NCBI GenBank assembly: GCA_028820695.1 | Contig: JAPPIB010000013.1 | Span: forward strand, 1 to 64,000 | Length of the DNA stretch: 64,000 bases | Direction of reading: 5' to 3' | Source: Acidiferrobacterales bacterium | GTDB lineage: Bacteria; Pseudomonadota; Gammaproteobacteria; Arenicellales; JAJDZL01 | In this document: piece by piece, positions 1 through 19,737 of the stretch | Numbering within the stretch: the stretch's first letter is position 1 | Layout of the letters: each line of letters starts with the position of its first letter | Program-made: the position numbers and the translations under genes | The notes under the pieces: model-generated | Database searches by the model: none | What the model saw: the letters and a program-made list of their open reading frames with translations, nothing else | What the model was told of the DNA's origin: nothing

Positions 1-105
1 CCTGCCTTAGCCTATGCCTCATTTTAAAGAAATTGAAATATTTAGACGCACACCCATGCCGCACTCGCACATTGGACCGTTTCATCGAAACCATGCACAA
101 TAGTT

Positions 106-2880
106 ATGCCAACTGGAACCGGTAAAACAGAAACGATGCTGGCACTATTTACCGCTGTCTATATCAAGAGGTTGATGGTTGTCGTGCCAAATGCGGCGTT
201 GAGGGATCAAATTGCTGAAAAGTTTCTGACACTAGGGATTTTAAAAGGTGCAGGTGTCTTGGAATCGTGTGCCGAGTTTCCTGTTGTTGCTACGTTGAAA
301 CGCCGCCCAACTTCGGTAGAGGATGTAGATGAAATATTTGAACGAGCCAATGTTATCGTGACGACGATGCAAATAGCTGGCCAATGCAATGAGAACGTTC
401 AAGAACACATGGCAGAGCACTGCTCCCATTTGTTCATAGATGAAGCACACCATATTGCCGCTCGAACTTGGCAGGTATTCAGGTCAAAATTCGATGCACG
501 AATCGTAGTTCAGTTTACAGCGACACCGTTTCGTACTGATGGAAAAAAAGTTGATGGCAAATTCATTTATGTGTATCCGCTCGCGAAAGCTCAGAAAGAA
601 GGGTACTTCCGAAAAATTCAATTTCAAGCAGTCCAAGGTTTGGATGACGTTGAAGCCGACACCGAAATAATAAAGCTAGTGGGTAACCAATTGAAAGCTG
701 ATCTTGCTAACGGATTCGACCATCTTGTGATGGCTCGTGTAAATAAAATCGATCGAGCAATCGCAATTCATAAACTCTACGAGAAAAATCTGCATGAATT
801 CAATCCGGTGATTGTTCATAGCAGAATGAGTGGTTCTGAACGGACTAATGCTATCGCTATGCTACAGAGTCGCAACAGTCGAATAATCGTGTGTGTCGAT
901 ATGTTGGGTGAAGGATTTGATCTTCCACAACTCAAAATTTCAGGTTTGCACGATCGCCACAAGAGCGTTGCCATCACTTTGCAATTTACTGGTCGATTCA
1001 CGCGCGATTGTGGAAACATTGGCGATGCGACCGTAATTGCCAACATTGAACAGTCGGATATTGATGATGCTTTGCGTTCGCTCTACGCAGAAGATGCCGA
1101 TTGGAACTATCTCTTAAAGATTTTGAGCGAAAAAAAAACCACTCGACAACTCAAGCGTGCAGAAGTGTTGGAAGGATTTAATGAGAGTTTGGAGGGGATT
1201 CCACTCCAAACGCTCAATCCAAAAATGAGTACAGTCGTTTACAGGACAAACTGTGCGGAGTGGCGACCTCAGAACATCGATGAAATTATGCCAATTGCCA
1301 GCGTTTACTCTGGCCCAGTGATAAACGAAGCGGAGCGCCTCGCTGTGTTTGTTACACGGGATCAGACAAATGTTAAGTGGAGTTCTACGAAAGAGGTTGT
1401 GAATGTCGAATGGAACTTGTACCTAGTGCATTGGGATCGAAATACGAATCTGCTCTATATAAACAGTACCAAGAAAAATGACCTCCACGAGAAACTTGCG
1501 AAAGCTATATGCGGTGATTGCGCGATCCGAATCCATGGTGAGAACGTGTATCGCATACTAGATGGAATCAATCGCTTGATGTTGGCAAACCTTGGTCTAA
1601 GCCACCCACTCGGCCGCTACATTCGTTACACGATGTTTGTCGGGTCCGATATTACCACACAGTTGAACGCTGCGTCATACAGCATGAAAAGAAAGTCGAA
1701 TCTCTTCGGTCTTGGATACAGAGGTGACGGAAAGGTAACGGTGGGGTGTTCGGCAAAGGGGAAAATATGGTCGATGCAGTCTGCTGGAGATTTTAGTGAA
1801 TGGCTTGATTGGTGTCGGTTAATGGGTTCCAAGTTGATCGATGAATCAATTACAACGAATAGTTTCATCCATAATCTAATTCAACAAGAGGTGATCACGG
1901 AGCGTCCAGCAAAACCACCAATAGCGGTACATTGGCCAGAATCGCTACTAGTAGAGTTTGAGGAGCGAATTAAATTCAGGTTCGGTTCAGGAGAATGGGT
2001 TGGTTTTCATAATTGTGAAATTGATGTTGCACATCATAATGAATCATTACCGATAAGATTCACAGTTTCGACCGAAACAGCGACCGCTACATTTGAAGTT
2101 CGACTCAGCGAAGGCGGTGCCGAGTATCCGCAGATTGATGGACCACCTGTACTGATTGACTATAAGGAAGAGCAGCCGGTTTCAGAGTTGTTTAAAAATG
2201 ACGCGCCACACATCCATTTCGCAGACGGCGACTTTCTAATTTTCAACGAGTTGTTTAAGTTACCGCAACGGGAGGATCGAATCGTTTTTGATTTAAACAA
2301 GATCGAAACACGCGATTGGAGTGGCACTGACTTGAATTCCGAATCTCAAGGTCAAGGCAAAAATCCACGGTCGATTCAGCGGGCAGTTATTGAAGAACTG
2401 TTGGCGCTTGAACCGAGGATTGACGTTGTTTTTGATGACGACGGCTCTGGAGAGATTGCAGACGTGGTTGCGGTCTCCGAAAAAGGCGAGCAATTGAAAG
2501 TAGAACTATTCCACTGCAAGTATGCGCATGGGGCTGCACCGGGAAATCGTGTTTCGGACCTGTATGAGGTATGTGGGCAGTCGCAAAAATCTGTGCGTTG
2601 GCGAGAGAATCCAGGTCGAGTTCTGAAACGGATGGTGAAGCGAGAGAATGATCGGCTCACAGCGGGACAGGTGTCGCGCTTTGAACGAGGAAATCTCGGA
2701 ATTCTAAAAAGCTTAGTTTCACGCTGGCACGAACTTGAATTGGATTACCGTGTATGGATTGTCCAACCGGGTCTTTCAAAGACGAAAATCGAACCAAAAC
2801 AGCTAGACTTATTAGCAGCTACTGAGATCTACCTGCTTGAGACTTATAGGATTCCACTTCGAGTGATTGCCAGTAAATAG
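106..2880 (+). CDS. SF2 DEAD/DEAH-box helicase with C-terminal nuclease-like domain, 5' end damaged
   Basis: Large superfamily 2 helicase. From this ATG the protein opens directly on motif I (PTGTGKT). Motif II is IDEAHH near residue 114, motif III is TATPFR near 138, motif V is DMLGEGFDLP and motif VI is QFTGRFTRD near 300. Near residue 785 to 810, GEIADVV followed by VELFHCKY looks like a PD-(D/E)XK-type core (inference). The ATG at 106 cannot be the natural start, because motif I normally follows a Q-motif region. The frame is open back to base 46 and reads HAALAHWTVSSKPCTIV there, which is typical sequence before motif I, but it is closed by stops at 25, 34 and 43. Frame 2 has an ATG at 14 and reads FRRTP just before, so a small indel near base 55 is likely. 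It heads a defence-like cluster with the next two genes. Helicase: sure. Role in defence: inferred. Confidence 0.85.
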   Translation: MPTGTGKTETMLALFTAVYIKRLMVVVPNAALRDQIAEKFLTLGILKGAGVLESCAEFPVVATLKRRPTSVEDVDEIFERANVIVTTMQIAGQCNENVQEHMAEHCSHLFIDEAHHIAARTWQVFRSKFDARIVVQFTATPFRTDGKKVDGKFIYVYPLAKAQKEGYFRKIQFQAVQGLDDVEADTEIIKLVGNQLKADLANGFDHLVMARVNKIDRAIAIHKLYEKNLHEFNPVIVHSRMSGSERTNAIAMLQSRNSRIIVCVDMLGEGFDLPQLKISGLHDRHKSVAITLQFTGRFTRDCGNIGDATVIANIEQSDIDDALRSLYAEDADWNYLLKILSEKKTTRQLKRAEVLEGFNESLEGIPLQTLNPKMSTVVYRTNCAEWRPQNIDEIMPIASVYSGPVINEAERLAVFVTRDQTNVKWSSTKEVVNVEWNLYLVHWDRNTNLLYINSTKKNDLHEKLAKAICGDCAIRIHGENVYRILDGINRLMLANLGLSHPLGRYIRYTMFVGSDITTQLNAASYSMKRKSNLFGLGYRGDGKVTVGCSAKGKIWSMQSAGDFSEWLDWCRLMGSKLIDESITTNSFIHNLIQQEVITERPAKPPIAVHWPESLLVEFEERIKFRFGSGEWVGFHNCEIDVAHHNESLPIRFTVSTETATATFEVRLSEGGAEYPQIDGPPVLIDYKEEQPVSELFKNDAPHIHFADGDFLIFNELFKLPQREDRIVFDLNKIETRDWSGTDLNSESQGQGKNPRSIQRAVIEELLALEPRIDVVFDDDGSGEIADVVAVSEKGEQLKVELFHCKYAHGAAPGNRVSDLYEVCGQSQKSVRWRENPGRVLKRMVKRENDRLTAGQVSRFERGNLGILKSLVSRWHELELDYRVWIVQPGLSKTKIEPKQLDLLAATEIYLLETYRIPLRVIASK

Positions 2881-3197
2881 AATGGCTTGGCGAATTCTCC
2901 TGATAAATCGCAATCTCATATTAATTTGTTACAACCTGGGAGCGATATTAGCAGCAATCTATACGGCGTTGGAGCAGAATTCAGGGCAAAGTTTAATGAT
3001 CTAAATCTGGACAGTTTTCTGGATGTAACTTCATCTTGTTTAGATTGAAAAATTGGATCTGAAATTTTCGAAGAAATCACTTGGTAACGGGAGTTCACGT
3101 CTGATCCGTGACAGTAATATTGTGACACAGAAACGTTGTTGGACTTTCTACATTCGACAAACTTGGCTGGGTATTCCAGCAATACTTAATTCCTTGG
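2881..3197. other. Intergenic gap, no gene seen
   Basis: AT-rich spacer of about 320 bases between the helicase and the GHKL-HNH gene. No convincing open frame, strong terminator or repeat was seen. It may hold the promoter of the downstream gene, but no clear -35/-10 pair stands out. Confidence 0.5.
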
Positions 3198-6100
3198 ATG
3201 CGGATTAACTGTATGAACGACATAGACAAATACCATGACATTGAGTTAGTTGAAGGCAACGAATTTGTTACAGAAGTAGACGAAATTCCTATCGTCTGGA
3301 ATTTTTTTGTAGGTCTTGACCGCAATGATCTTATCGCAGAACTTGTTCAAAACGATATTGACCAAGATGCTACTAGGACAACTGTCCGATTTGAAAAAGA
3401 TCAATTGATTTGTGAAGGAAATGGCCAACAAGTGGATTCCGACGGTTGGGCGCGCCTTAGAAAATTGCAAGGTGCAGGTAACAGTGTGCCGGCAAAACGA
3501 GGGAAAATTGGTGTAAAAAACCACGGCCTCAAAACTTCGTTTACTATCGGGGATGAGATTCACCTGTCTTCTGCTGGACAGAAAATAATTCAAACTCTAT
3601 ATGCGGAAGGTAGAGACAAACCACCACGTCCCGGTGCATCTAAGGAACCGGTTCAAGACCCGGATGCTCCAGAAACCGGTTGTCGCGTAGTCATTATGCG
3701 GCGTAGTGAAGAAATTACCCCTAGCGTGGGAGAAGCGATTACGCTTGCGGTTACTGATCAAACGGAGATGGATGAATTGTTCGAAAGGTCCTGCCAAAGA
3801 ATTCCAGATCAGTTCATAGGAATCGTTTCGCCATACGCTATCAAGAAGTTCGAGTTAGAGCTTAGTCACTGGCAACTTGGGACGGTCAGCTTCAAATTCA
3901 ATTGTTCGTATCCCAAAAAAGTAAAGAGAAAAAACAAATACTTTGAGATCTTTCGCAGGCGTTGTACTGTCAGTGGAAACAAGGACCCACTTCCATCGAA
4001 ATTAGTAGAAGAAGTTTCAATTCGAACGTTTCCTCTAGAAAGACAGCTTAAGCAGCGCATCCCATTTTTCTATAAACGTGATCGCAATCGTTACTTCGTT
4101 GAGGTTTCTTGGTTTGTGAACAGTAGAGGAAAACCTATAGGTGGTGTAGGAAAATACCGATATCCAATTGGCTATCCGGAGGGTTCAACTAACGCATATA
4201 CAGGGCATGGTATGTCCTTTAGTGCACCGATCGTATCTAATACTGAACGTCACGGTCCTGCAGCGAATGATTCGACAAACAAGCTATTAAGTGGGTTATG
4301 TGAAGATCTGTTGGTTGACACTATTGAGTTCCACCTGATTAAGAGGTGGGGAGTGAACGGATTGAATCCCCTTATCCCGAACCTAAAGATAAGTAATAGA
4401 GACGAAATAGTACGACCTCTATTGGCAAAAATTGCAAGTAACGGTGCTATGCCTACACTTGCATGGAAAGCTGCAACCCTCCGGGTAACAAAATCCAAGA
4501 AACAAAAAACACGGTCTAAGTTATCCGCTGTGCTAAACCGAGTAAGCAGGGAGGATATTCTTGTAAAGCCGAAGTATCAATTCATAATTCCGATTACACT
4601 TGGGGAAGAAGTTGAAGAAATCAATGTGCCATTAGCCGCAGTTTCTCCACGATCAGAATTTCAGCTAGATTCAAACATTGACTCTGAACTACTTAAGTTT
4701 CTCGTCGATGGCAAAACCGAAGGGTTTTGTGATGAATTCATAACTTTTGATGAGAACGACGCGTTCGCTCGAATTAAACAGGAGGGAAACAAATGGTTCC
4801 CTGTATGCACCAATATTGAAGCTGAGTGTGCCGAACCACAATTTGTGCGCTATTACCTTGATGTGATTCACAGTTGGCTTAATCGCAAAGACAAAAATAG
4901 CGACAATGATCTTGAGAATGTTTTGCAAGAAACATTATTGCTCCCTGATTCGAATGTCAACCCGGTTCGATTCGATGAGTTGTATGCTAGCGCGCCTCTG
5001 CCAAGCGAAATACCAAGTTTGAATTTGCCACATGTTTTACACCCTGACGTGGCCAATCATCCCATATTCAATAGAACGAAATGGCGTAGACCAACATTCA
5101 AGTTTAAAGACTTCATTGAGAGCGGGAAAATACAGAATTCGGATCACTTAACAAAGAAACAATTTTGGGATTGGTATTGCCAAAATAAACGAAAGATTTC
5201 CAAGCGAGACCGCGCTAAATTGGCTCAAATTGAAATTTGGCCAGACAAAACTATGAATTTCTTCAGAATTTCGGATTTTTGCGCTCCAAAGGATAGGCGA
5301 ATCGCAAAGATTCTTGAGAACGCGATAAAACAACCGCATGAGAGTGTTCTCAGTTTGAATCTTGTAACTATTGGCAAGAAAGGAAAAACTTCAATTCGAT
5401 GCATTCCCACACAAAATGAAATCGACACTTGGATATTCAAACGTATCGAGCAGTTTTCAATTGGCGATTTCCCGGATAATCAAGAGAAAGAATCGTTAAA
5501 ACGATTCGAAACTGAATTAATAGTCCTATTGAAGAATCGAGGCATTGCGAAACTGTTTCAACATAATGAAGCGATACTTCCCGCGTTAGCGAAGGATGGG
5601 TCAATTCAGCCTCGAAATCAACTCGTTATTCCGAGCAGAGAGAATAGTCGTATCGAACTGAGAAGCAGGTTCTTGCTGACAAAAAGTTCTGCTAGTATGT
5701 CACTAGACAAGATTTCTAGTGCTCTGCCAACACCAAAATTGGATATGCTTCTGTCAACTTTCAAGGAAGACCCTCAAAATGATGGTGCTTTACACGCACG
5801 TCTAGATTTGTTCATTAGGCTTACTCAGGATACTGGGGATACACTTCACGAGATCACTGAGACGCCTATCATACCAGTTAGAAACGAGTATAGATCACCT
5901 TGCGAACTCGCATTCAAGGCTGGAGGCAGCAAACCTGACTACTACGGAGAGTGGAAAATCCGAATTCCCGGGAAGGGTCTTTCCCAAGATGATCAAACTC
6001 GTTACAGGAAAATCGGAGTCACTTCTGCAACACTAAATTCGTCGACAAGCATTAAGTTTTTCAGGTGGTTGTCGAGGCAGAGCAGCGATGTCCTCGAGAA

Positions 6101-7535
6101 GCACTTAGGATGCATTCTGCATCAATTTAGAGATAAAAATGGCCCCGGTGACTGGATTAATGATTATCCCTATGACTCTGTGATTCCAACATTAAATCGT
6201 TCCAATTATCAATTAGTTTCTCTGAACCATGCGAGAAAGAAACCTGTATACATTCCCGATGTGGTTGAATCGCTCGCTAAGAAAGTCAATGAGAATGATC
6301 GGTATGTTTCTCTAGCTGTGATTTCGGTTAAAGGGATTCGGAATCCAATTTCAGGGAGTTTGAAAGATTTAGGCGTGCGTTCACTAAAAGAAGCTTTCGG
6401 CGAACCTCAGTGTGTCACAGGTCGCGGTGCAAGAGAAGAAAAATCGTCTGAATTTGTAGAAATTTTTCAACGACTGAATGAACGAAAATTTCATAAAGAT
6501 GTTATGAAAAACTTTGATTCACTTGGAGTCGATTCCGGCCTAATGAGACAAAACTGGCAACACCGACTGTCAACGATTAAGAAGTTAGTTATTGCCGATA
6601 AAGTCGATGTGACTTACCGATTCCGACGTAGAAATTACACAATTGAGGAGAAAGCAGGTTTTGACCAACAGTCTGGAGTGTTCTATGTAAACAAGAAGTT
6701 TGGTAAGGATACAGAAATAGTGTGCGAGGCAATTGCTCGGCAATTAATTTTCAAATCATCAGCACAAACGATGCACCACTTGACATTAAAGCGGGCCTTG
6801 GAAATGGAATTTAAAGATCGAGGATTAGAAGTAACGGCATCGACTGTTTCTAGTGAGAAAACCAGTTCGAACACGGATACCCCAAATGACGGAGATGGTG
6901 TAATTATTGACGATACCGAAACTGCGGAAGCAACCTCTGGACATTCTCCATTTGAGCCGGACTCTAAAAAAAACGTTCCGGTACTAGTTCCCTTTTCTGA
7001 AGGCGATTCGGGTTCATCAGAACTTTCACGGGCCGGTGCGGATATAGATAATGAAACAAACTCTGGGGAACATCGTAGTTCGTCTTCGAAACAATCAAAT
7101 ATACAATCAACTAAACTTGAAGAAAAGCACAAGAGAGAAATTAGAGACCATTATGCTAATCATTGCCAAGTCTGCCTTTGTGAACAAAATCCAAATATTC
7201 TTGCCCCCAAAAAAAGTTATGTAGAATTTTCGGAACTAAGACAAAAATTGATTGAGATTCACCACGTAGACCCAAAACATGCGGAAGGTGCGAGGCACGC
7301 TGGCAATTTGATTTCTTTGTGTAAATTTCATCACGATAATTTTGGTCGGAGACTTGCAAGAGAATGGATTACAAGCGCACTCAAAGATAATCCTCAAAGC
7401 GAAACAATCCTATTTCCAAGCGATAGAGGCAAATTTAAACTAAAGGGTAAGATAGTGAAAATCAAGTTCCGAGATAAGGGAGATTCCATTTCTATTTTTT
7501 TTGATGATCGACATGCTGATTACTGGCTCAACTGA
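3198..7535 (+). CDS. Sacsin/Hsp90-like GHKL ATPase fused to C-terminal HNH nuclease
   Basis: Very large protein of 1,445 residues; a second in-frame ATG at 3213 is an equally possible start. The N-terminus has a GHKL-type ATP-binding fold: ELVQNDIDQDAT near residue 49 has the N-box pattern (E, N, D), and GKIGVKNHGLKTSF near 98 fits the glycine-rich lid of Hsp90, MORC and sacsin ATPases. The long middle is not recognised. Residues of about 1,215 to 1,310 form a Ser/Asp/Glu-rich linker. The C-terminus is an HNH nuclease: CQVC near 1,322, EIHHVDP near 1,352, then NLISLCKFHH near 1,368, giving a Cys/His zinc site around the HNH core. GHKL ATPases joined to nucleases occur in prokaryotic conflict systems, so with the helicase upstream and the GIY-YIG gene downstream a DNA-targeting defence role is inferred. 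The domain calls are firm; the function is not established. Confidence 0.8.
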   Translation: MRINCMNDIDKYHDIELVEGNEFVTEVDEIPIVWNFFVGLDRNDLIAELVQNDIDQDATRTTVRFEKDQLICEGNGQQVDSDGWARLRKLQGAGNSVPAKRGKIGVKNHGLKTSFTIGDEIHLSSAGQKIIQTLYAEGRDKPPRPGASKEPVQDPDAPETGCRVVIMRRSEEITPSVGEAITLAVTDQTEMDELFERSCQRIPDQFIGIVSPYAIKKFELELSHWQLGTVSFKFNCSYPKKVKRKNKYFEIFRRRCTVSGNKDPLPSKLVEEVSIRTFPLERQLKQRIPFFYKRDRNRYFVEVSWFVNSRGKPIGGVGKYRYPIGYPEGSTNAYTGHGMSFSAPIVSNTERHGPAANDSTNKLLSGLCEDLLVDTIEFHLIKRWGVNGLNPLIPNLKISNRDEIVRPLLAKIASNGAMPTLAWKAATLRVTKSKKQKTRSKLSAVLNRVSREDILVKPKYQFIIPITLGEEVEEINVPLAAVSPRSEFQLDSNIDSELLKFLVDGKTEGFCDEFITFDENDAFARIKQEGNKWFPVCTNIEAECAEPQFVRYYLDVIHSWLNRKDKNSDNDLENVLQETLLLPDSNVNPVRFDELYASAPLPSEIPSLNLPHVLHPDVANHPIFNRTKWRRPTFKFKDFIESGKIQNSDHLTKKQFWDWYCQNKRKISKRDRAKLAQIEIWPDKTMNFFRISDFCAPKDRRIAKILENAIKQPHESVLSLNLVTIGKKGKTSIRCIPTQNEIDTWIFKRIEQFSIGDFPDNQEKESLKRFETELIVLLKNRGIAKLFQHNEAILPALAKDGSIQPRNQLVIPSRENSRIELRSRFLLTKSSASMSLDKISSALPTPKLDMLLSTFKEDPQNDGALHARLDLFIRLTQDTGDTLHEITETPIIPVRNEYRSPCELAFKAGGSKPDYYGEWKIRIPGKGLSQDDQTRYRKIGVTSATLNSSTSIKFFRWLSRQSSDVLEKHLGCILHQFRDKNGPGDWINDYPYDSVIPTLNRSNYQLVSLNHARKKPVYIPDVVESLAKKVNENDRYVSLAVISVKGIRNPISGSLKDLGVRSLKEAFGEPQCVTGRGAREEKSSEFVEIFQRLNERKFHKDVMKNFDSLGVDSGLMRQNWQHRLSTIKKLVIADKVDVTYRFRRRNYTIEEKAGFDQQSGVFYVNKKFGKDTEIVCEAIARQLIFKSSAQTMHHLTLKRALEMEFKDRGLEVTASTVSSEKTSSNTDTPNDGDGVIIDDTETAEATSGHSPFEPDSKKNVPVLVPFSEGDSGSSELSRAGADIDNETNSGEHRSSSSKQSNIQSTKLEEKHKREIRDHYANHCQVCLCEQNPNILAPKKSYVEFSELRQKLIEIHHVDPKHAEGARHAGNLISLCKFHHDNFGRRLAREWITSALKDNPQSETILFPSDRGKFKLKGKIVKIKFRDKGDSISIFFDDRHADYWLN

Positions 7536-7620
7536 ATATTCAGATAAAGTTGAATTGGTAACATATAGGGAATGTGATTGAGGAAAATACTTGTTCAAGA
7601 ATGATCGGGAAAGATTTGTG

Positions 7621-7656
7621 AGCCCCAGTGGGCTGAGACAGCGCGGTGTAGGGGCT
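7621..7656 (+). promoter_or_regulatory. Possible alternating hairpins in leader of GIY-YIG gene
   Basis: AGCCC (7621) can pair with GGGCT (7630 to 7634) over a CAGT loop. The same 5' arm, as AGCCCC, can instead pair with GGGGCT at 7651 to 7656. The two folds exclude each other and lie 17 to 52 bases before the ATG at 7673, so they could affect expression. This is seen only as base pairing. Confidence 0.3.
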
Positions 7657-7672
7657 ATAACCTTTTGAATAC

Positions 7673-8233
7673 ATGGATTCTATCATCTCTATTTCCGATC
7701 AATTGTCTAAAATTAGAGATAGTGTAGAAAACATTCCTGAGCATCTCGGTTCCGGGATTTACGCGATTTTCGCAAAAAATTTAGACTGTCTAGCTGAATT
7801 CACCATACCATCGAGTGGAGTAATCTATATTGGTATATCTAATCGACTTGAATTGAGAAATCACTTTAAAGCAAAATATAGTGGATTTTCGACTATACGC
7901 CGTAGTATTGGAGCGATTCTTAAGAATGAACTTAATTTGTCAGCGGAGCCACGGTCGAAAGGTAACTCAGAGACAAACTATAGGGATTTTCGATTTACTG
8001 GAAACGGTGAAAAGTGCCTTAGCCTATGGATGCAATCAAATTTGGAGTATTCAATTGTCGATCTTGAGGGAGATTTGATCGAAATAGAAACTTGTTTGAT
8101 TTCGCAAAATGAACCACCACTTAATTTGACAAAGTACGAAAATTACCAAAAGAAACGCATTCGGCACCTAAGAAATCAATGTAAAGAAGAAGCAAAGAAA
8201 ATTTGGGAATGCAATCATTTGGCCAAGCGATGA
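7673..8233 (+). CDS. GIY-YIG nuclease-family protein
   Basis: Protein of 186 residues. The GIY motif is GSGIYAIF near residue 28 and the YIG motif is VIYIGIS near 50. FSTIRRSIGAIL near 73 matches the conserved segment found after the YIG strand in one GIY-YIG subgroup. EIETCLISQNEPPLNL near 138 provides the acidic metal ligand and the Pro-Pro-Leu-Asn end typical of the same subgroup. The C-terminus is basic and may bind DNA. It follows the GHKL-HNH gene by 137 bases on the same strand, so the helicase, GHKL-HNH and GIY-YIG genes may be one three-gene nuclease system. The family call is fairly sure; the partnership is inferred from position. Confidence 0.7.
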   Translation: MDSIISISDQLSKIRDSVENIPEHLGSGIYAIFAKNLDCLAEFTIPSSGVIYIGISNRLELRNHFKAKYSGFSTIRRSIGAILKNELNLSAEPRSKGNSETNYRDFRFTGNGEKCLSLWMQSNLEYSIVDLEGDLIEIETCLISQNEPPLNLTKYENYQKKRIRHLRNQCKEEAKKIWECNHLAKR

Positions 8234-8466: not shown

Positions 8467-9138
8467 ATGCAATCTCAAGAACCTCGCAAAGTTGGAGAAA
8501 TTACGCTGTTTGAGTTTTCTGTGGTGATCGCAGCAAATTTCAATAATCCGGCAATTCTGAATCCAGATTTCCTGCGTTACAACAAAATTGTTGATAATCA
8601 GTACGAAGTAAACGATTCACCTATTACAACTCCAGCATTTTCTCAAGTTAAATTCAACAATGGAATCTCTGTTACTTCAACTCCTGATCAATTAGTTTTC
8701 CAACAAATTAGAGACGAATTGAATTCAAATGAAATTTGCTCTCCATCAATTGCGATGCGCTACCTAAAGTGCGTTCCGCATGTTTCTTATAGTGCCGTAG
8801 GGATTAATCCGAAAGGGTATTCTGTAAATCGGTCTGAGAATCATGTTTTGAATATGCTGAGAGAGGGGGGCTCATGGATAACCTTCAAAGATACCAGCCC
8901 TACTGTAACGTTGAAAACAGCCTATGACTTTGGCGGCAGAAAGATCGCTCTTGAAATATCTGAATCGCATCAGTTGACAGCGAGCAAGAATATAACAGGA
9001 ACAGTATTCCAGGCAAACTTCCATCACGAATCAAAAGGGCAAAATGTGGGTTCTCGTATCAAACATTTAAATTCCATACTAGAATCGTGGAACCGTGATC
9101 TAATAGAATTTTTTGTTCTAGTAGACAAGTATTGTTAA
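8467..9138 (+). CDS. Unknown protein, first of a three-gene module
   Basis: Protein of 223 residues that I do not recognise with confidence. It has no signal peptide or membrane segment. Seen in it: NPDFLRYNKIV near residue 36, then FSQVKFNNGISVTSTPDQLVFQQ, where the alternating hydrophobic pattern suggests a beta-rich fold. The layout faintly recalls sporadically distributed proteins of the TIGR04255 type, but that is a weak impression. The stop lies within the region of the next start (ATG at 9147), so the two are adjacent and probably co-transcribed. It begins just after a boundary repeat at 8329. Confidence 0.6.
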   Translation: MQSQEPRKVGEITLFEFSVVIAANFNNPAILNPDFLRYNKIVDNQYEVNDSPITTPAFSQVKFNNGISVTSTPDQLVFQQIRDELNSNEICSPSIAMRYLKCVPHVSYSAVGINPKGYSVNRSENHVLNMLREGGSWITFKDTSPTVTLKTAYDFGGRKIALEISESHQLTASKNITGTVFQANFHHESKGQNVGSRIKHLNSILESWNRDLIEFFVLVDKYC

Positions 9139-9146
9139 GAAAACTT

Positions 9147-9833
9147 ATGTCTGAGCAAACTACACAACTTACCATTGAAAGTTCGACTAATGAAACTATG
9201 CCGTCGTCACAGGCATTTTGGCGAGACCAACAATTGTCTCGGAATTCTCATCCCGACTTTCAATTTACGATGTACAGATTCAATCGTGAGAATTCATCAA
9301 ATTGGCTTGTGTCTGATTCTGAGTGGATGCCGCTTACAGCACAAGAAATAGATTTACAAGTCGCTGACAATCCTTTCGGAGACGCACTTTTGTTGACGGC
9401 TCAACTAATGGTTACGAGAGTTGACCAAAGGTTGTGGGAATCTCTAGCCGAGTATCTTTTACGTGGTGCAAATGGATTTAGGGTGCAACTTGCTCAAGCT
9501 TTGAATGAACTTGATGAAATAGTGGATGAAGCAGAGTCAGAGGGATACGAAATTCCAAACAGTACTGCGATAGACAATGCAGAATACATAACAAAGCGCA
9601 TTTACGATAAATTGTCACACCCGTTTCAAATATATCCAATGCCGGATGGAGAAGTTGCCATTGATGTTACAGATGAAGATGGAAGTTCCGTGTTGATACT
9701 ATGTCGTCCAGACGGTGGTACGCTGTGTTTTGTGAACATTAATGGAAATCAACGTAGAGCACACTACTCCAACTCCGACGCACTCCCAGATGGTTTCATG
9801 TGTGAAGCCCTTGAGGAACTTCAACAAGAATAA
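9147..9833 (+). CDS. Unknown acidic protein, second of a three-gene module
   Basis: Protein of 228 residues from ATG 9147; the frame can be read from a TTG at 9132, but the ATG is preferred. It is not recognised. The N-terminal third is hydrophilic. The middle is helical and acidic (ELDEIVDEAESEGYEI near residue 130) and is followed by a beta-rich end containing FQIYPMPDGEVAIDV and ILCRPDGGTLCFVNI. It has no membrane segment. The gap to the previous gene is 8 bases and to the next gene 8 bases, which supports one transcript. Such tight triples of unknown proteins in defence islands are often a single system (inference). Confidence 0.6.
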   Translation: MSEQTTQLTIESSTNETMPSSQAFWRDQQLSRNSHPDFQFTMYRFNRENSSNWLVSDSEWMPLTAQEIDLQVADNPFGDALLLTAQLMVTRVDQRLWESLAEYLLRGANGFRVQLAQALNELDEIVDEAESEGYEIPNSTAIDNAEYITKRIYDKLSHPFQIYPMPDGEVAIDVTDEDGSSVLILCRPDGGTLCFVNINGNQRRAHYSNSDALPDGFMCEALEELQQE

Positions 9834-9841
9834 ATTTCGTA

Positions 9842-10243
9842 GTGGCGTATCACAGCAAGGTTGATCCGACTGAAGAGCTTGGGCGGGGGATATTTTCAAG
9901 TAGCATTGCGAAACGGTCCCGACGTGCGATTCCTAAGAATGTATTTCTTGAAAGGGAAGGGAATGCACGGATATCCGTTGATCGATTGAGTATAGCACCA
10001 GCTATCGAATCCATTAGAATTGCTGACGAAGTTGCCGTTCAGCGAAATAGGAAATTTTACGGTTGGGCAATTATCAGTGCTGAGAGTGCGAGCCAGAATG
10101 GACGATCGGTGGAAGCTTCTGCACTCATCCACAATCAGTTTCATGCTGATATCGTTTTGCCGCCTGAGGCAAATAAAAGAGAAGAACAAATTATGCATGC
10201 GCAGTTGTTGGCTGACCTCTCAAACTGGCGTGCACGCCCATGA
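9842..10243 (+). CDS. Unknown protein, third of a three-gene module
   Basis: Protein of 133 residues starting at GTG 9842, since no ATG is available near the N-terminus. It is not recognised. The first half carries DPTEELGRGIFSSSIAKR and then VFLEREGNARISVDRLS, an arrangement that looks like a conserved core. The second half, around YGWAIISAES and HNQFHADIVLP, resembles a short beta-rich domain with a conserved His-x-x-x-His. It closes the three-gene group begun at 8467, with an 8-base gap from the previous gene. Confidence 0.55.
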   Translation: MAYHSKVDPTEELGRGIFSSSIAKRSRRAIPKNVFLEREGNARISVDRLSIAPAIESIRIADEVAVQRNRKFYGWAIISAESASQNGRSVEASALIHNQFHADIVLPPEANKREEQIMHAQLLADLSNWRARP

Positions 10244-10417: not shown

Positions 10418-12088
10418 ATGGATATTCAACCACAACTATTGCCATTGACAAAATTACTCGATGGTCGTTTGTTTTCCATTCCCGATTACCAACGTGCATA
10501 TAGCTGGGGTTCACAGCATAGAGCGGATCTGTTTGAAGATATAGAGAATATTTTCCAAAATGGAAAACATGAAAGTCATTTTATGGCGACAATAGTTTGT
10601 TTGCGCAGAGAATCTAAATTTCCAATTGGAACAGACGAATATGATAAACTCGACATAGTGGACGGACAACAACGATTGACAACAATTGTCCTGCTTTTGA
10701 ACGCTATAAAACTGGAACTGAAGCGATGCGATCAAAGTTATGTCGAAAGAGAGTTACGAGAAATTTCTGAATTATTGGTTAAAGAGAGTAGCGACAATCT
10801 TATCCTATTACAAACCAATCAAGACTCATCCTTTTATTTCTTCAACTTTATTCGTTATGGGACGGTGGTTTCTGTAGATCAAGGGAAAACTCTGGCTGAT
10901 CGAGAGCTCTTGAAGGCGATTGAAGATTGTCAAGAATTCCTGCGTAACCGGAGAATGGATGAACAGAAACTTTTAGAATTGTATTCCTGCATAAAGAATC
11001 GATTATTCTTTGTTTTGTACGAGATATCTGAGGAGAAACTTGTATACACTGTTTTTGAGGTTCTCAATAGCCGTGGAATTGAAGTATCTTGGCTAGACCG
11101 CCTCAAGTGCATATTAATGGGTAAAGCATATGAGTTGCCCAATTCCAGTGAACAATTGATTCCAGAACTTCACACCATCTGGCGCAACATTTATAAAGAA
11201 ATCGGTTTACATCAAGGGTTGAGTTCAGAGTCCCTGCGTTTCGCTGCAACACTTTATCAATCCGGCAAGCCAAGTAAACCGCTCAGTGAACCAGACGCAG
11301 TTGCTGAGTTTAGAGATAAGGCTGTCGATGCTTCAAGTATTAGAACGGCCGCCCAGTGGCTTCTCAACGTCACTAAAGCCTGCGACAAAGTCTTTGCGGA
11401 TTCTCGACGAAATGCAATAACAAAAATATCTCAAGCGCGTCTACTGGTTGTCGCAATTCACCTTCGGGATGATATAAATGAGGATGATAAAGAAAAGCTA
11501 TTGATTTTATGGGAAAAGACCACATTTCGAATCTACGGAATGTTGGGTAAAGACGCTCGTACACAAGTAGGTAATTATGTTCGGTTATCGTGGAGAATTA
11601 AAAAAGAGAATCTATCGGTTAAGGAAATTCAATCTGAAATCCAGTCTATTGGCAAAGGATTTCCGATCAATGATGCTGTTGAGTCTCTTCGAAATTTTAA
11701 CTGCTACGAAGGATGGGGAGAAGAACTAAGGTATTTTATGTTTCGATACGAAGAGTATTTGGCAAAAAAAGAGGGGCAGGATATTTCAAAAAAACAATGG
11801 GAACTAATTTGGCAGAAAAGTACATCGGAATCGATTGAACACATCTGGCCTCAGAGTACAGCCCCAGAAGACATTAAGCATAGAATTGGAAATCTTATGA
11901 TTTTACCGCTAGGCTTAAACAAACAGTTACAAGATAATCATCCTAACCAGAAATTTGCTGCGTATGAAAGGACTGGGCTTTATAGTGCGACAGAGGTACC
12001 TCCCAGAACCAGAAGGTGGTCGAAAAAGGCAGTGAACAATAGAGAGCAAAGACTATTGGAGTTTGCAAGAATAGAATGGGGAGATTAG
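10418..12088 (+). CDS. Single-chain GmrSD-like protein (DUF262 plus DUF1524)
   Basis: Protein of 556 residues. The N-terminal DUF262 (GmrS-like) domain is marked by FSIPDYQRAYSW near residue 20 and VDGQQRLTT near 81, the nucleotide-binding ParB/sulfiredoxin-type signature. The C-terminal DUF1524 (GmrD-like) HNH domain is marked by SIEHIWPQ near 476, then GNLMILPLGLNKQL. In the GmrSD family these two halves act as a type IV restriction enzyme against phage DNA with modified bases such as glucosylated hydroxymethylcytosine. Here both lie in one chain of the usual length, and both signatures look intact. It stands alone between the three-gene unknown module and a small unknown gene. The domain call is sure; the substrate is not readable from sequence. 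Confidence 0.88.
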   Translation: MDIQPQLLPLTKLLDGRLFSIPDYQRAYSWGSQHRADLFEDIENIFQNGKHESHFMATIVCLRRESKFPIGTDEYDKLDIVDGQQRLTTIVLLLNAIKLELKRCDQSYVERELREISELLVKESSDNLILLQTNQDSSFYFFNFIRYGTVVSVDQGKTLADRELLKAIEDCQEFLRNRRMDEQKLLELYSCIKNRLFFVLYEISEEKLVYTVFEVLNSRGIEVSWLDRLKCILMGKAYELPNSSEQLIPELHTIWRNIYKEIGLHQGLSSESLRFAATLYQSGKPSKPLSEPDAVAEFRDKAVDASSIRTAAQWLLNVTKACDKVFADSRRNAITKISQARLLVVAIHLRDDINEDDKEKLLILWEKTTFRIYGMLGKDARTQVGNYVRLSWRIKKENLSVKEIQSEIQSIGKGFPINDAVESLRNFNCYEGWGEELRYFMFRYEEYLAKKEGQDISKKQWELIWQKSTSESIEHIWPQSTAPEDIKHRIGNLMILPLGLNKQLQDNHPNQKFAAYERTGLYSATEVPPRTRRWSKKAVNNREQRLLEFARIEWGD

Positions 12089-12966: not shown

Positions 12967-13833
12967 TTATGGTTTCGACCTTGTTATCTCACACATGAAG
13001 CGAATAGCGTCTTTGACGCGAGTTTTTGTGGAGTCTAATTGCGCTAATGAGAATTTTCCAGCGGGACCATGTGTGCCCGCATTTAGTTCACCAAAGAGCA
13101 TTAAGACATTGTCAATGTCAGCACTGACAAAATTCTCAAACGTGTCATTAGCCCTACCATGTCTATTGAGACAATAGTGAATCTTTGCGCGGCGTGTGGG
13201 GGAGCCGTCTTTTGTTTTGTCGCAGTCGGGAGAATGAATTAAAACATCAGATTTCGGTGCGTTTATGTCTAAAATTTGTGTAATTATCTCACGAGAACTA
13301 GAGCAAAAATGGCGAGCCGCGTCGGGGTTGTTAGGATTAAGAGCGTAGATTGCACCGTACCAACGACTGTGTAAATCTGGAGAGACGTCAGCCAACTCAT
13401 CTGCAATTGATGAGTCACAAATATCTTCGTGAGAAATTTTGGGATCTGGTGTATTGTCAATGAGACTATTGAAAACAATTACACTATTGGCAGTTTCCTG
13501 TTCCGCAATGTCAGTAAGGAAAGAATCGGTTCCAGATATGTCCAACTGTTCGTACGCATTGGAAAGGATTTCAACAGATTTGTAGAATTTTGAATTTCGG
13601 ACATCGATGGACTGTTGGGCGAAATGATTCAGTGCTGAATTTAGGCGGTTTTGATTCGCGCGAACGCGAGTGTTGAAAGTTCGTACTTCTTGGTTATATG
13701 CAGCAACCTTCCGTTTTTGTTCAGAGTTGAACTTGCGGATCTCACTATTTAACTTATGAACCTGCTGGCGTTGTTTGGATTGCGCCTGCTTGATTCTTGA
13801 GCGAATTTGGGAGGAGCTTATACGTTGGACCAT
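12967..13833 (-). CDS. Coiled-coil protein with predicted pPIWI-associated-type nuclease domain
   Basis: Protein of 288 residues on the minus strand. Residues 1 to about 75 are a charged coiled coil. The C-terminal half contains LHSRWYGAIYALNPNNPDAARHFCSSSREIITQIL near 150, PTRRAKIHYCL near 210, and FGELNAGTHGPAGKFSL near 255. This arrangement of a conserved Arg-Glu helix, Arg-rich turn and N-x-G-T-H-G fits the predicted nuclease domain described next to prokaryotic Argonaute/PIWI genes. I recall the family from its sequence pattern, so the name is tentative. No Argonaute gene is in the window, so here it acts alone or is left over. Its upstream side ends at an insertion-sequence-like terminus at 13851. 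Confidence 0.5.
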   Translation of the reverse strand: MVQRISSSQIRSRIKQAQSKQRQQVHKLNSEIRKFNSEQKRKVAAYNQEVRTFNTRVRANQNRLNSALNHFAQQSIDVRNSKFYKSVEILSNAYEQLDISGTDSFLTDIAEQETANSVIVFNSLIDNTPDPKISHEDICDSSIADELADVSPDLHSRWYGAIYALNPNNPDAARHFCSSSREIITQILDINAPKSDVLIHSPDCDKTKDGSPTRRAKIHYCLNRHGRANDTFENFVSADIDNVLMLFGELNAGTHGPAGKFSLAQLDSTKTRVKDAIRFMCEITRSKP

Positions 13834-14522: not shown

Positions 14523-15644
14523 TCAAAATTCTACCTCTACCGCATTTAAGAGCTGTTTTGCGATCTCGACGCAGGAGTCTGCCAAGTCTACCGTTGCAAA
14601 TCGAATTTCGTGATTCTGAATTTTTACGGCTTCATAAACGGTTCCATCTACTACTGGATGTAGTAGCAAACCTGTTGCATTGCGTGCTAATTCAGATTGT
14701 TCTTCCTGGGTTCTTAAATAGGCGTAGATTTGATAGAGATAGCCGCTATTTAATGTTTCTTTACGAAACTGCCCTACCTTCAAAATACTAGTAAATTTGG
14801 TGTCGATTATTATTCGTTTTTTAAGCTTTTTATTACTCAACACTATATCAGTTTGCATTCCAGGCAGAATGTCGTCAATTTGAGGGGTTTTACTCTCCAG
14901 GTCAACTGGCCAGTAACATCGTTCTCCAGGATAAACCCGCCATCCTTTCTTTGACAGCTTTACATCGTAAAATCCGGCAACACTTTTTTCGAACAGCTTT
15001 CGCAGCCATAGCGAATTTCTGTCTGGATTGGAAAGAACCCTAGTGCCAATCATCTCTTCGGGTAAGGCCAAATTGAAAGCCAAGTATGCCGCTTGTAACA
15101 TTGGACGGTCATTGGCATCGTGCAAACCGAATTGGTTGACTGTTATTGTCCTGTGATTTGGACGTTCACCTATTACGCCCATACGCTCCAAAGTTAGCGC
15201 AAGCGATCGGCATTTGTTGACGAGATTGGACTTAGATGACACCACCGTGGACATTTTCCTCAATGCGTCTCGAACGTAGCGATTTCGGGGGGTATCAACG
15301 GTAAATTCGTTGTAATGGCAGGCTACTTGTCCTCTGTCAAGCAATCTTTGACGTGCGGTTTGAAATAAATCTATTCTCCCTCGTACTCGGTTGAGAACAT
15401 CGTTTCTTGCAATGTATCCAAAATTCAGATTTCTACGAATTCGCTGTTCGACTCTGCGATACAGAATTTCCGCTACCAAATCCGGAATATCGTCAGGGTT
15501 ATCTTCAACCGATTTTTTTGATTGATCAAGGTCTCTGTATAGATCTGATGCATAGAGCATGAGCAGCCAGATATTACGTATCGGAATTTGATCAACGTAG
15601 TTTACTTCTTCGTTTTGAATTAAGGGCTTGGTTGCTTGATCCAT
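14523..15644 (-). CDS. mcrC: McrC-type restriction nuclease subunit
   Basis: Protein of 373 residues. IPIRNIWLLMLYASDL near residue 21 is the typical McrC start, and VLNRVRGRIDLFQTARQRLL near 102 is the conserved linker of the family. The PD-(D/E)XK nuclease core lies near 285 to 305: QTDIVLSNK, then RIIIDTKFTS with D-x-K. McrC gives the cleavage subunit of McrBC, which cuts DNA with modified cytosines and is driven by McrB GTPase. Length is normal and the catalytic residues look intact. It begins 9 bases after the mcrB stop, so the two are one operon read leftwards. The call is secure; the recognised base is not predictable. Confidence 0.9.
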   Translation of the reverse strand: MDQATKPLIQNEEVNYVDQIPIRNIWLLMLYASDLYRDLDQSKKSVEDNPDDIPDLVAEILYRRVEQRIRRNLNFGYIARNDVLNRVRGRIDLFQTARQRLLDRGQVACHYNEFTVDTPRNRYVRDALRKMSTVVSSKSNLVNKCRSLALTLERMGVIGERPNHRTITVNQFGLHDANDRPMLQAAYLAFNLALPEEMIGTRVLSNPDRNSLWLRKLFEKSVAGFYDVKLSKKGWRVYPGERCYWPVDLESKTPQIDDILPGMQTDIVLSNKKLKKRIIIDTKFTSILKVGQFRKETLNSGYLYQIYAYLRTQEEQSELARNATGLLLHPVVDGTVYEAVKIQNHEIRFATVDLADSCVEIAKQLLNAVEVEF

Positions 15645-15653
15645 ATTGATTCA

Positions 15654-18140
15654 CTACTCGCGAAGAAGACGTTTCTTTGCATCTCTATATTTTGAGGCGG
15701 CATCAAACCAGTATTCTTCAAGCAACGGTCCAATTTCGGTTTTCACTACCTGTTCAAACCATTTCCAAGGATCATCTGGTTTTATATCCGGTGTAACAAA
15801 ACTGTGCCCAATTTGGAATTGTTTACCGAGATTATCATCATTGGAAATGGTTTCATTCAGCTGTTCTATCCTTGTCTTCAACCTATCGAGAACTTTCTTG
15901 TCAATTTGATATTTTTCGTGTACCCACCTGCGCCATTCTTTGTTGAGTTCGGGTTTTAAGTCAATGAAAGCAAATCGTCGACGTAATGCAATGTCCACAA
16001 GCGTCAATGACCGGTCAGCCAGATTCATCGTTCCGATGATGAACAGGTTATTGGGAAGGTATACGCGTTCCTCACTTGATTTGCTGTAGATTAGTTTTAG
16101 ACTTTCTTCAGGCATTCGTTTGCTAGCTTCTATCAGCGTGAGCATTTCGCCGAAAATCTGTGCGGGATTACCACGATTAATTTCCTCTATGACAATTACA
16201 TAATTGGAATCCACGTCTTGTAGGGCAATATTAACAACCTCCATAAACGGTCCGTCTACCAGATCAAACCCGCTGCTGCCACTTGGTCGCCAACCACGAA
16301 TGAAGTCTTCATACGACAAACTAGGGTGGAATTGAAGCGCACTAATTTTGCGTGTATCTTTTGCTCCGATCAAGGCGAAAGCAAGCCGTCTCGCGAGCCA
16401 CGTTTTCCCTGTCCCAGGCGGTCCCTGGAGAATTAGGTTTTTTTTCATTTTGAGACGCTTGTAAATTTCTTCGAGGCGCGATTTCTTAATGAAGCACCCA
16501 TCTTCAACAATACTTTCAATGTCATACGATTTGAGCACTGGTTTCTTGTCTTCGCCCTTAACCTTCTGCTTGTTTTTCTTTATTTTGACTGGTCTATCTT
16601 CATAAGCAGCCAAAGATAGATCTGGGAATGAATTTACTGGGAAATCGTCTTCCAGAAATCGTGTTTGCAACTCCGTCATCAAATTCATATACGCACTCCC
16701 ATTTATCTGATCATTGACAATCAATTTGTCAGTCGGAATTGCGAGCCTACTTGAAAGATATTTTCGAGACTCTTGGTCAAGGGTTAAGTATTCCCAAGGG
16801 CGAATCCAATAAAGACCCATTGAGAGATTCCATTTGACGCCACGGACTCGTGCAACTTCGTCGAAAACTGTCAAGAATGATGATCGAAGGCTGTCGTAAT
16901 CTGAATCAATCAATTCCAAGGCCCTTTCGAATATCTCCCAAAGCTTGTCAATGTCACTTGTGTTCCGATCTTTTTGAAATGCAAAAAAATACATTGTATG
17001 GTTTGAGACGACTGGAATGCCTTCGAACGATTCAGGCACAGGCTGAGACATACCAAACACATCTGCGAATTTACCTGCAATGCGTATTCGATTACGGTCA
17101 GTTATCTGCCTGTTGAATCGCGCAAACGCCGAGAAAGGGCAAAAGTCATCCATAGGGAATTCCGAACCGTCCTTACCCCTATCCATTAGAGATGGTTTTT
17201 GAAAAACTTGAAACTCAATGTCGTTAATTTCCTTGAGCAATTCCTGACGCCGATTCTTAAATTCAAGGAGTTTGTTAGCAAACTCTTCGTAGAAATTTGT
17301 CCAAACAAAACGATTATTTGAGTCTCCGAAACGGTCTTTCCAATAGGAGTTATTGCGAAAAGTGTCGATGTCTTGCTCCTGTCCTTCGAACGCAAATTTC
17401 AACAACCTTTTACCGTGTTCTGCCTCCGTACTCACTTTCCAGAAATGTCGATTCCAGTCATAGAAATACCATTTTCGTGGAGTTTGGAATATTTGATGCC
17501 ACTCAACTTTCAATTTGTGGTCGTCAATTGGATGTTCCAACACTTCTCCAACAGCATCAATAGCCATCACAGGTACTGGAAGTCCGTGATTTTCGAAAGA
17601 AAGTTTATCTTTGCTTCGGTATGACTTTTTGAGTATGATTCGATCACCGGCTCTAACGGAGTTCAATTCGTCATAGAAATTGTCCTGAGTTCTATTCTTA
17701 TTCTCCCAGAATCCATTCTGTATGAAGTCGGATGTGTAATCTGAATTTCCAAATTTACTAGCAACAACCCATATAGGCCTAGTTTCCGAGTCTAGAAAAT
17801 CGTATGTTTGGGTGGTACTTAAGGCAATTTCTGCATCAATTTGTGGTTTGTAGCGGGGGGAGGGGTCTTTTTCGGGTTCCCATAAACGAAACTCACTTGG
17901 CCCCAACTTGTAGAACAGGTCAAACCCCTTTCCTGGTTTTATACTGGAATGATGACGGCGACTATTAGAATTCACCGACATGCCTTCCACGTGCATCTCA
18001 ACGGTATTGCTTTTGATATTTGGATAGTTGTCGGCGAACCAACGACTCGCATCCTTGCGAGTAAACGCCTGTCCAGGTTTTAGTTCTTGGGCTGCAAATT
18101 CGTGCATTAATTCCCTGGTGGGTTTGTCGTAAATTGGCAT
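15654..18140 (-). CDS. mcrB: McrB-type AAA+ GTPase with N-terminal DUF7669-like and EVE-like domains
   Basis: Protein of 828 residues. The C-terminal motor has GPPGTGKTWLARRLA (Walker A, near 572), IVIEEINRGNPAQIFGE (Walker B, near 648) and MNLADRSLTLVDIALRRRF (near 703), the McrB version of sensor 1 and arginine finger, where most McrBs read MNTADRS. The N-terminus (about 1 to 95) resembles DUF7669, a small DNA-binding-like module. Residues of about 120 to 230 (RPIWVVASKFGNS through VGEVLEHP and DWNRHFWKV) resemble an EVE/PUA-type reader domain, which in McrB fusions is proposed to sense modified bases. It forms an operon with mcrC. Motor and operon are firm; the reader call is by pattern only. 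Confidence 0.87.
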   Translation of the reverse strand: MPIYDKPTRELMHEFAAQELKPGQAFTRKDASRWFADNYPNIKSNTVEMHVEGMSVNSNSRRHHSSIKPGKGFDLFYKLGPSEFRLWEPEKDPSPRYKPQIDAEIALSTTQTYDFLDSETRPIWVVASKFGNSDYTSDFIQNGFWENKNRTQDNFYDELNSVRAGDRIILKKSYRSKDKLSFENHGLPVPVMAIDAVGEVLEHPIDDHKLKVEWHQIFQTPRKWYFYDWNRHFWKVSTEAEHGKRLLKFAFEGQEQDIDTFRNNSYWKDRFGDSNNRFVWTNFYEEFANKLLEFKNRRQELLKEINDIEFQVFQKPSLMDRGKDGSEFPMDDFCPFSAFARFNRQITDRNRIRIAGKFADVFGMSQPVPESFEGIPVVSNHTMYFFAFQKDRNTSDIDKLWEIFERALELIDSDYDSLRSSFLTVFDEVARVRGVKWNLSMGLYWIRPWEYLTLDQESRKYLSSRLAIPTDKLIVNDQINGSAYMNLMTELQTRFLEDDFPVNSFPDLSLAAYEDRPVKIKKNKQKVKGEDKKPVLKSYDIESIVEDGCFIKKSRLEEIYKRLKMKKNLILQGPPGTGKTWLARRLAFALIGAKDTRKISALQFHPSLSYEDFIRGWRPSGSSGFDLVDGPFMEVVNIALQDVDSNYVIVIEEINRGNPAQIFGEMLTLIEASKRMPEESLKLIYSKSSEERVYLPNNLFIIGTMNLADRSLTLVDIALRRRFAFIDLKPELNKEWRRWVHEKYQIDKKVLDRLKTRIEQLNETISNDDNLGKQFQIGHSFVTPDIKPDDPWKWFEQVVKTEIGPLLEEYWFDAASKYRDAKKRLLRE

Positions 18141-19113: not shown

Positions 19114-19737
19114 ATGACTGGAATAGCTAGCAAAATAATGCGAAGAGTGTCCGAGAGAGAAAACGGAGGCTGGGTATGTACACCGAAAGATTTCCTGGAT
19201 CTGGGCAGTCGCTATGCTGTTGATCAATCTCTGTCACGACTTGTCAAAGCAGGGCAACTACGCAGACTGGGACACGGCCTGTATGCAGCGTTTAGGTTCA
19301 GCGATGTGCTGAATGGTCCGGCACCTGCCAGTCTGGAATCAATCATTGCAGCACTGACACGAAGGGACGGAGCGCGGATTATGACAGATGGAATGGTTGC
19401 GGCAAATCTGCTGGGGCTCACCAACGCTGTACCTGCGAAAGTAATCTACCTGACAGATGGTCATTCGAGAACGCTGGATATCGATGGCCGAACCATTTGC
19501 TTCCGGCATGCTGGCCCGAACACCATGAAGTGGGCAGGGAAACCTGCTGCGCCAGTAGTTCAAGCGTTGCGCTGGTTAGGTCCTCGCAACACCGTTGAGG
19601 GAGGGGCAGCCTTAACTTTGAACCGAATTCTTCCGAATGAGGTGAAGCAAGATTTGTTGGACAACATCCATGACTTACCGGGATGGGCTGTTGCGCTGGT
19701 GCGCGAAATCGCTCATGGTGGAGAATCTACTGCATGA
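19114..19737 (+). CDS. AbiEi-like antitoxin, DUF6088 family
   Basis: Protein of 207 residues. The N-terminal winged helix (RRVSERENGGWVCTPKDFLDLGSRYAVDQSLSRLV near residue 8) is followed by GQLRRLGHGLYA, the wing-to-body link of AbiEi/DUF6088 antitoxins, and then a type IV antitoxin body (IMTDGMVAANLLGLTNAVP). Such proteins repress their own operon and counter an AbiEii nucleotidyltransferase toxin. Its stop overlaps the start of the toxin gene (ATGA at 19734). A five-codon frame (MNADQ) at 19100 ends inside this start codon and may couple translation. A perfect dyad upstream (19070) is the likely operator. Confidence 0.85.
   Translation: MTGIASKIMRRVSERENGGWVCTPKDFLDLGSRYAVDQSLSRLVKAGQLRRLGHGLYAAFRFSDVLNGPAPASLESIIAALTRRDGARIMTDGMVAANLLGLTNAVPAKVIYLTDGHSRTLDIDGRTICFRHAGPNTMKWAGKPAAPVVQALRWLGPRNTVEGGAALTLNRILPNEVKQDLLDNIHDLPGWAVALVREIAHGGESTA

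Follow-up and report, generated by a model that had tools for sequence, protein, structure and literature searches.

The first 64,000 nucleotides of contig JAPPIB010000013.1 (C13) of an Acidiferrobacterales bacterium (assembly GCA_028820695.1; forward strand), referred to here as the window, open with three adjoining plus-strand genes at positions 1-8233: part of a superfamily 2 (SF2) helicase with a nuclease-like tail, a giant protein with a GHKL ATPase and an HNH nuclease domain (ATPase-HNH), and a GIY-YIG nuclease. The original prediction had taken this trio for one defence system; our analysis makes it quite probable that the three genes are instead unconnected modules, each acquired on its own, that came to lie side by side at one edge of a defence island, and not parts of one machine. 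The open reading frames (ORFs), their order and the domain calls all hold. The claim of a single system does not, as the helicase recurs without the other two genes in all 24 loci compared and the sole full-length relative found for ATPase-HNH stands without both. The co-occurrence count that had been proposed as a check likewise found the families together in none of the loci compared outside the source genome.

The helicase belongs to an uncharacterised family that occurs as a single gene (~1,000-1,112 amino acids, aa) and has spread horizontally. A tblastn search of plasmids with the helicase returned 184 records, 57 of which cover at least 80% of the query, with the best matches (50% identity) in Rhodobacterales and Hyphomicrobiales and others in Enterobacterales, Vibrio, Acinetobacter, Pseudonocardia and Bernardetia. 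The family thus reaches plasmids of Alpha- and Gammaproteobacteria, Actinomycetota and Bacteroidota, in addition to islands of E. coli. Within the class, the source genome was the only one of 369 genomes searched to yield a copy. Annotated neighbourhoods of the plasmid copies vary from locus to locus. We queried 24 loci of the helicase, taken from plasmids, viral contigs and E. coli (some near-identical, hence not all independent), by tblastn with ATPase-HNH, GIY-YIG, the next three genes of the window, its GmrSD and pPIWI-associated nuclease genes (see below) and the type I restriction-modification (R-M) hsd genes of a second contig of the same genome, C47. Neither ATPase-HNH nor GIY-YIG was detected in any of the 24, nor were the three genes that follow GIY-YIG (223, 233 and 133 aa), and no genes other than those of type I R-M recurred as neighbours, these in a minority of loci. 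A gene of the LA2681 HEPN family adjoins the helicase in two unrelated plasmids (L010 and L032), lying before it in Roseovarius and after it in Agrobacterium.

The distribution of ATPase-HNH (1,445 aa; positions 3198-7535, plus strand) points the same way. No full-length copy was found in plasmids, phages, viral contigs, 100 relatives, 397 genomes of the phylum or 369 of the class, in scans of the collections with short peptides that diverged copies can escape. One scan of 84,980 species genomes returned a single full-length relative (L017; 1,428 aa, 39% identity), encoded in an alphaproteobacterial metagenome-assembled genome (MAG) on a 5.4-kb contig that leaves 437 bp ahead of the gene and ~700 bp behind it. 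These flanks contain neither a helicase end nor GIY-YIG (the frame behind the gene resembles, by eye, a Phd/YefM-type antitoxin), and neither partner was detected elsewhere in this draft MAG. In a genome of the same genus as the source (G002), we found two decayed remnants of the C-terminal part of ATPase-HNH (L015, 4317-5597; L016, 4323-5081). Such a patchy distribution, together with the decay, is consistent with a mobile and dispensable gene. The GIY-YIG nuclease (186 aa; 7673-8233, plus strand) matches PF20815 (E=5e-19; 69 bits, the cut-off being 22) and carries the GIY, YIG, R, E and N motif residues that align with its relatives. Few relatives were found on plasmids: the closest, in Ancylobacter (37% identity), follows two N-6 DNA methylases, and others stand alone in Actinomycetota. 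Three GIY-YIG loci contain neither the helicase nor ATPase-HNH, and searches of 340 genomes of the class and of viral contigs yielded no GIY-YIG relative.

The helicase of the window is itself broken, as the original prediction had correctly noticed, and we traced the cause to a probable insertion sequence (IS). The window begins at base 1 of its contig in a 2.77-Mb genome of 58 contigs, and the helicase ORF (106-2880, 924 aa) has a frame that stays open upstream only as far as a repeat at the contig start. This repeat (positions 1-55), which ends in the 11-bp inverted repeat GACGCACACCC, recurs without a mismatch at the very start of contigs C23 and C39; we infer that contig ends sharing exactly 55 bases are the trace of a de Bruijn assembler at a repeat boundary. 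That C13, C23 and C39 share one 55-bp element end indicates a mobile element with at least three copies in the genome, which breaks the assembly. With the N-terminal part of a full-length homologue as query against the whole genome, we located the missing 5' part at the start of C47 (positions 56-551, minus strand, ~163 residues). The residues encoded on C47 end in ...LRPPQIGALYAA, after which comes GGGTGTGCGTC; in the window, GACGCACACCC precedes the helicase. Both halves carry the same 9-bp target-site duplication ATGCCGCAC (56-64 in the window, with the identical nine bases at the C47 break), the 11-bp termini match each other perfectly as inverted repeats, and comparison with homologues shows an unbroken helicase frame across the insertion site.

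The insertion point thus lies at window position 55/56, just upstream of the Walker A motif, and no full-length helicase would therefore be produced. The inserted element is probably an insertion sequence, as read from its ends, its body being absent from the assembly. Its opposite terminus was found at one contig end only, and we take the remaining contig ends of this kind to be missing from the assembly or the bin. We dropped misassembly or a frameshift as the cause of the break in view of the 55-bp end on three contigs and the matching inverted repeat and target duplication on the other half of the gene. The 3' part (56-2880, plus strand) has lost none of the 82 columns found invariant across 17 homologues, suggesting that the insertion is recent. 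To judge from these junctions, the helicase is inactivated in this genome by the IS insertion and, with the helicase split, this genome would therefore hold no working trio.

What remains of the helicase matches the Pfam families ResIII (E=3.7e-18), Helicase_C (2e-9) and DEAD (5e-9). Its C-terminal tail (about residues 740-924 of the 924-aa ORF) has a DD..GE.AD...HxK...Q core that is invariant in the 17 homologues and kept at every position in the window copy. Two of 16 family members weakly match Mrr_cat at the tail. A low-confidence model of the tail (predicted local distance difference test, pLDDT, of 50) gave no significant match in Foldseek, and a tail profile gave none among PDB sequences; in second-look alignments the model aligned with HamA, MspJI, FokI, N.BspD6I, SduA and Cap4, mixed with unrelated chains, which is weak evidence. 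The tail may thus be a PD-(D/E)xK-like domain in which H replaces the usual catalytic acid.

Reuniting the two halves of the helicase also revealed its other neighbours. On C47 (L045), the minus-strand genes for HsdM, HsdS, an Abi_C protein (212 aa) and HsdR (654-6889; the Hsd proteins assigned by sequence and gene order, Abi_C by Pfam) form a type I R-M operon that lies on the same strand as the helicase and reads towards it, with the helicase starting ~100 bp past HsdR. The helicase is found in 15 of 5,426 E. coli genomes and, in three of the five chromosomal E. coli loci examined, hsdR-hsdM-hsdS is followed after 6-12 bp by the helicase, the other two having hsd remnants ahead of it; hsd genes also lie near the helicase in Vibrio, and HsdR on one viral contig. 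The type I R-M operon is therefore a better-supported neighbour of the helicase than ATPase-HNH or GIY-YIG. In E. coli loci L077, L084 and L086, a hypothetical gene of ~1.25 kb lies 153 bp past the intact helicase and is followed by a tyrosine integrase and tRNA-Leu, the setting of a tRNA-Leu integration island; the same hypothetical gene trails the helicase in L014 and L085.

These arrangements invite the reading that the helicase serves type I R-M systems as an accessory, for instance to finish DNA off once HsdR has translocated, with ATPase-HNH and GIY-YIG as unrelated neighbours. The hsdM-hsdS-Abi_C-hsdR-helicase order in the source genome, the tight hsd-helicase spacing or the remnants in E. 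coli and the Vibrio and viral cases all speak for it. However, type I genes are missing from the surroundings of most plasmid helicase loci, defence islands commonly contain type I R-M in any case and the E. coli loci are related to one another, and we regard a dedicated accessory role as possible and, on balance, doubtful. In our preferred account of separate modules, the helicase would be an SF2 enzyme that works on its own and has a PD-(D/E)xK-like tail, from a family that travels alone and sometimes follows type I R-M genes, and the GIY-YIG protein would be a small, separate nuclease of a restriction-like family.

ATPase-HNH, in turn, may be a self-contained effector. Its ATPase core (residues ~34-130; window about 3297-3587) includes a match to the NCBIfam sacsin-type ATPase domain NF047352 at residues 45-122 (E=3e-7, 30.8 bits, under the curated cut-off of 50), a domain that scores equally high in HtpG-sized proteins. 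The predicted core has the N box (E48, N52, D55), G1 (G74-N75-G76) and G2 glycines (G102, G105, G110) of a GHKL (Bergerat-fold) ATPase, all invariant with L017. The putative HNH domain (PF01844; residues 1350-1376, E=0.0035; 17.9 bits, below the cut-off of 21.4) lies in a C-terminal region (about 7146-7370) whose C1323, C1326, H1355, H1356, N1370, C1375, H1378 and H1379 are likewise invariant with L017. Because these motif residues are invariant in a relative of 39% identity, both domain calls are backed. Structure prediction of residues 1-620 reached a pLDDT of 31. A survey of the sacsin-domain family returned mostly HtpG-sized proteins, with no fetched locus matching an ATPase-HNH profile, and a literature search found no published description of a GHKL-HNH defence protein or of the trio. 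ATPase-HNH is thus a rare, undescribed protein.

We propose that the N-terminal GHKL domain would bind ATP and dimerise, that the large GHKL clamp would then close on a substrate, probably DNA or nucleoprotein, and that clamp closure would license the C-terminal HNH domain to cut DNA. We put forward this ATP-gated scheme because the GHKL motifs and the C-terminal HNH resemble what has been proposed for VcSduA and for nuclease-bearing paraMORC proteins, and by this analogy we infer that ATPase-HNH is a nuclease gated by an ATPase clamp, which might serve against phage. It could also have no part in defence and be a mobile-element or housekeeping-type chaperone-nuclease that is merely located in the island, a reading with which the lack of any PADLOC model match and the two decayed remnants in the genus-mate, such as any dispensable mobile gene might leave, would agree. 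Yet the gene is surrounded by a dense set of defence genes (GmrSD, McrBC, AbiEii, the pPIWI-associated nuclease and type I R-M) and its architecture parallels that of VcSduA, a proven GHKL-nuclease defence protein (PMC12137116); we hold a role outside defence to be the less likely outcome.

Several points weigh against treating the three genes as separate modules. All three lie on one strand, the single full-length relative of ATPase-HNH comes from a 5.4-kb contig of a draft MAG, such that partner loss or a missing genome piece could explain the absence of its partners, and GHKL genes adjoining SF2 helicases are documented for many R-M neighbourhoods, with HNH and other nucleases among their repeated companions (PMC2292703). 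A helicase-GHKL partnership is thus plausible in general, but the data for these particular families speak against it. That the adjacent, co-directional trio is one defence system specific to this lineage, wholly or partly disabled by the IS in its helicase, strikes us as very improbable, given the absence of co-occurrence in the 24 helicase loci and in the ATPase-HNH relative, the gaps of 317 bp (helicase to ATPase-HNH) and 137 bp (ATPase-HNH to GIY-YIG), and the more frequent position of the helicase beside type I R-M. We give equally little credence to the variant in which the trio, or the helicase and GHKL-HNH alone, is a rare lineage-specific system of a paraMORC-like clamp, a helicase-nuclease and extra nucleases cooperating, with other copies unseen through thin sampling and the copy here recently disrupted by the IS. 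In a simple scan, promoter and terminator sites were no more numerous in the two spacers than in shuffled sequence.

The modules lie in a setting rich in other defence genes. Between GIY-YIG and the next recognisable gene, three closely packed or overlapping plus-strand genes annotated without function (8467-10243; the 223-, 233- and 133-aa products mentioned above) have no Pfam, NCBIfam or PADLOC match above cut-off. They are followed by a predicted GmrSD-type (DUF262/DUF1524) type IV restriction enzyme (10418-12088, plus strand; Pfam GmrSD_N 7e-31 and GmrSD_C 1e-14; PADLOC HEC-06 and Orf5) and, on the minus strand, by a protein with a predicted pPIWI-associating nuclease domain (12967-13833; PF18165, E=7e-40) and a McrC-like and McrB-like (AAA_5) pair of type IV restriction (14523-18140; Pfam McrBC 2e-23, AAA_5 2e-26). 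Two DUF6088/AbiEi and AbiEii toxin-antitoxin-like pairs (19114-20777 and 22998-24327) belong to the same island. The GC content at third codon positions (GC3) is 0.33-0.44 in the helicase, ATPase-HNH, GIY-YIG, the following genes, GmrSD and the McrBC-like genes, against 0.62 in three window genes taken as core, which supports horizontal acquisition. Judged by its GC3 and its type I R-M operon, GmrSD, McrBC-like genes, pPIWI-associated nuclease and two AbiEi/AbiEii-like pairs, the region is a horizontally acquired defence island. The original prediction had placed the trio at the end of such an island; the island setting stands, while the end is only that of the contig, since the island continues on C47. 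Further into the window (25686-27626), we observed a gene for a 646-aa protein with an S-adenosylmethionine methyltransferase-like domain (residues ~101-217) and an HNH_4 match near the C-terminus.

These results remove a false lead in which adjacency within a defence island had been read as a system. They also bring forward an uncharacterised SF2 helicase of ~1,100 aa with a nuclease-like tail that is widespread on plasmids and present in E. coli islands, and thus directly testable in the laboratory, and a rare GHKL-HNH fusion that widens the set of single-protein GHKL-nuclease architectures, including VcSduA. The split helicase illustrates that contig ends can mask gene decay and the true neighbours of a gene, here a type I R-M operon.

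The original prediction had matched the trio to no named system, and PADLOC likewise gave no match for it: the helicase gave only fragmentary motor-domain matches (PbeA, 45 bits; Cas3), and ATPase-HNH and GIY-YIG gave none. The individual proteins nevertheless resemble known ones. VcSduA, a GHKL-type Shedu protein, combines an N-terminal GHKL ATPase with a C-terminal nuclease in a proposed ATP-controlled clamp (PMC12137116). ATPase-HNH is likewise a single protein with an N-terminal GHKL and a C-terminal nuclease; however, the nuclease of VcSduA is a PD-(D/E)xK DUF4263 domain, whereas the 1,445-aa window protein has an HNH and no DUF4263 match. MORC and paraMORC GHKL ATPases are found near SF2 helicases and endonucleases in R-M loci, and some paraMORC3 members end in an endonuclease domain and occur by themselves (Iyer et al. 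2008, PMC2292703). ATPase-HNH may resemble these proteins; it differs in that no conserved helicase partner was found for its family. Hna, a single-gene DinG/XPD-like SF2 helicase followed by a PD-(D/E)xK nuclease (845 aa; PMC13381803), was considered for the helicase, whose family differs in being ResIII/DEAH-like, ~1,000-1,112 aa long and endowed with an extra N-terminal region; no Hna chain was among the PDB sequence matches of the helicase up to E=10, in a PDB copy from which the Hna entries may be absent. Hachiman also couples an SF2 helicase to a PD-(D/E)xK-type nuclease, and HamA ranks near the top of the matches to the low-confidence tail model, but Hachiman consists of two genes (HamA nuclease and HamB helicase), whereas here the parts form one polypeptide, which has no HamA or HamB match in PADLOC. 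Finally, the GIY-YIG nuclease is small like the restriction enzymes of the Eco29kI/Hpy188I type, and its closest plasmid relative adjoins two N-6 DNA methylases; it differs from them in belonging to PF20815 and in having no adjacent methylase in the window.

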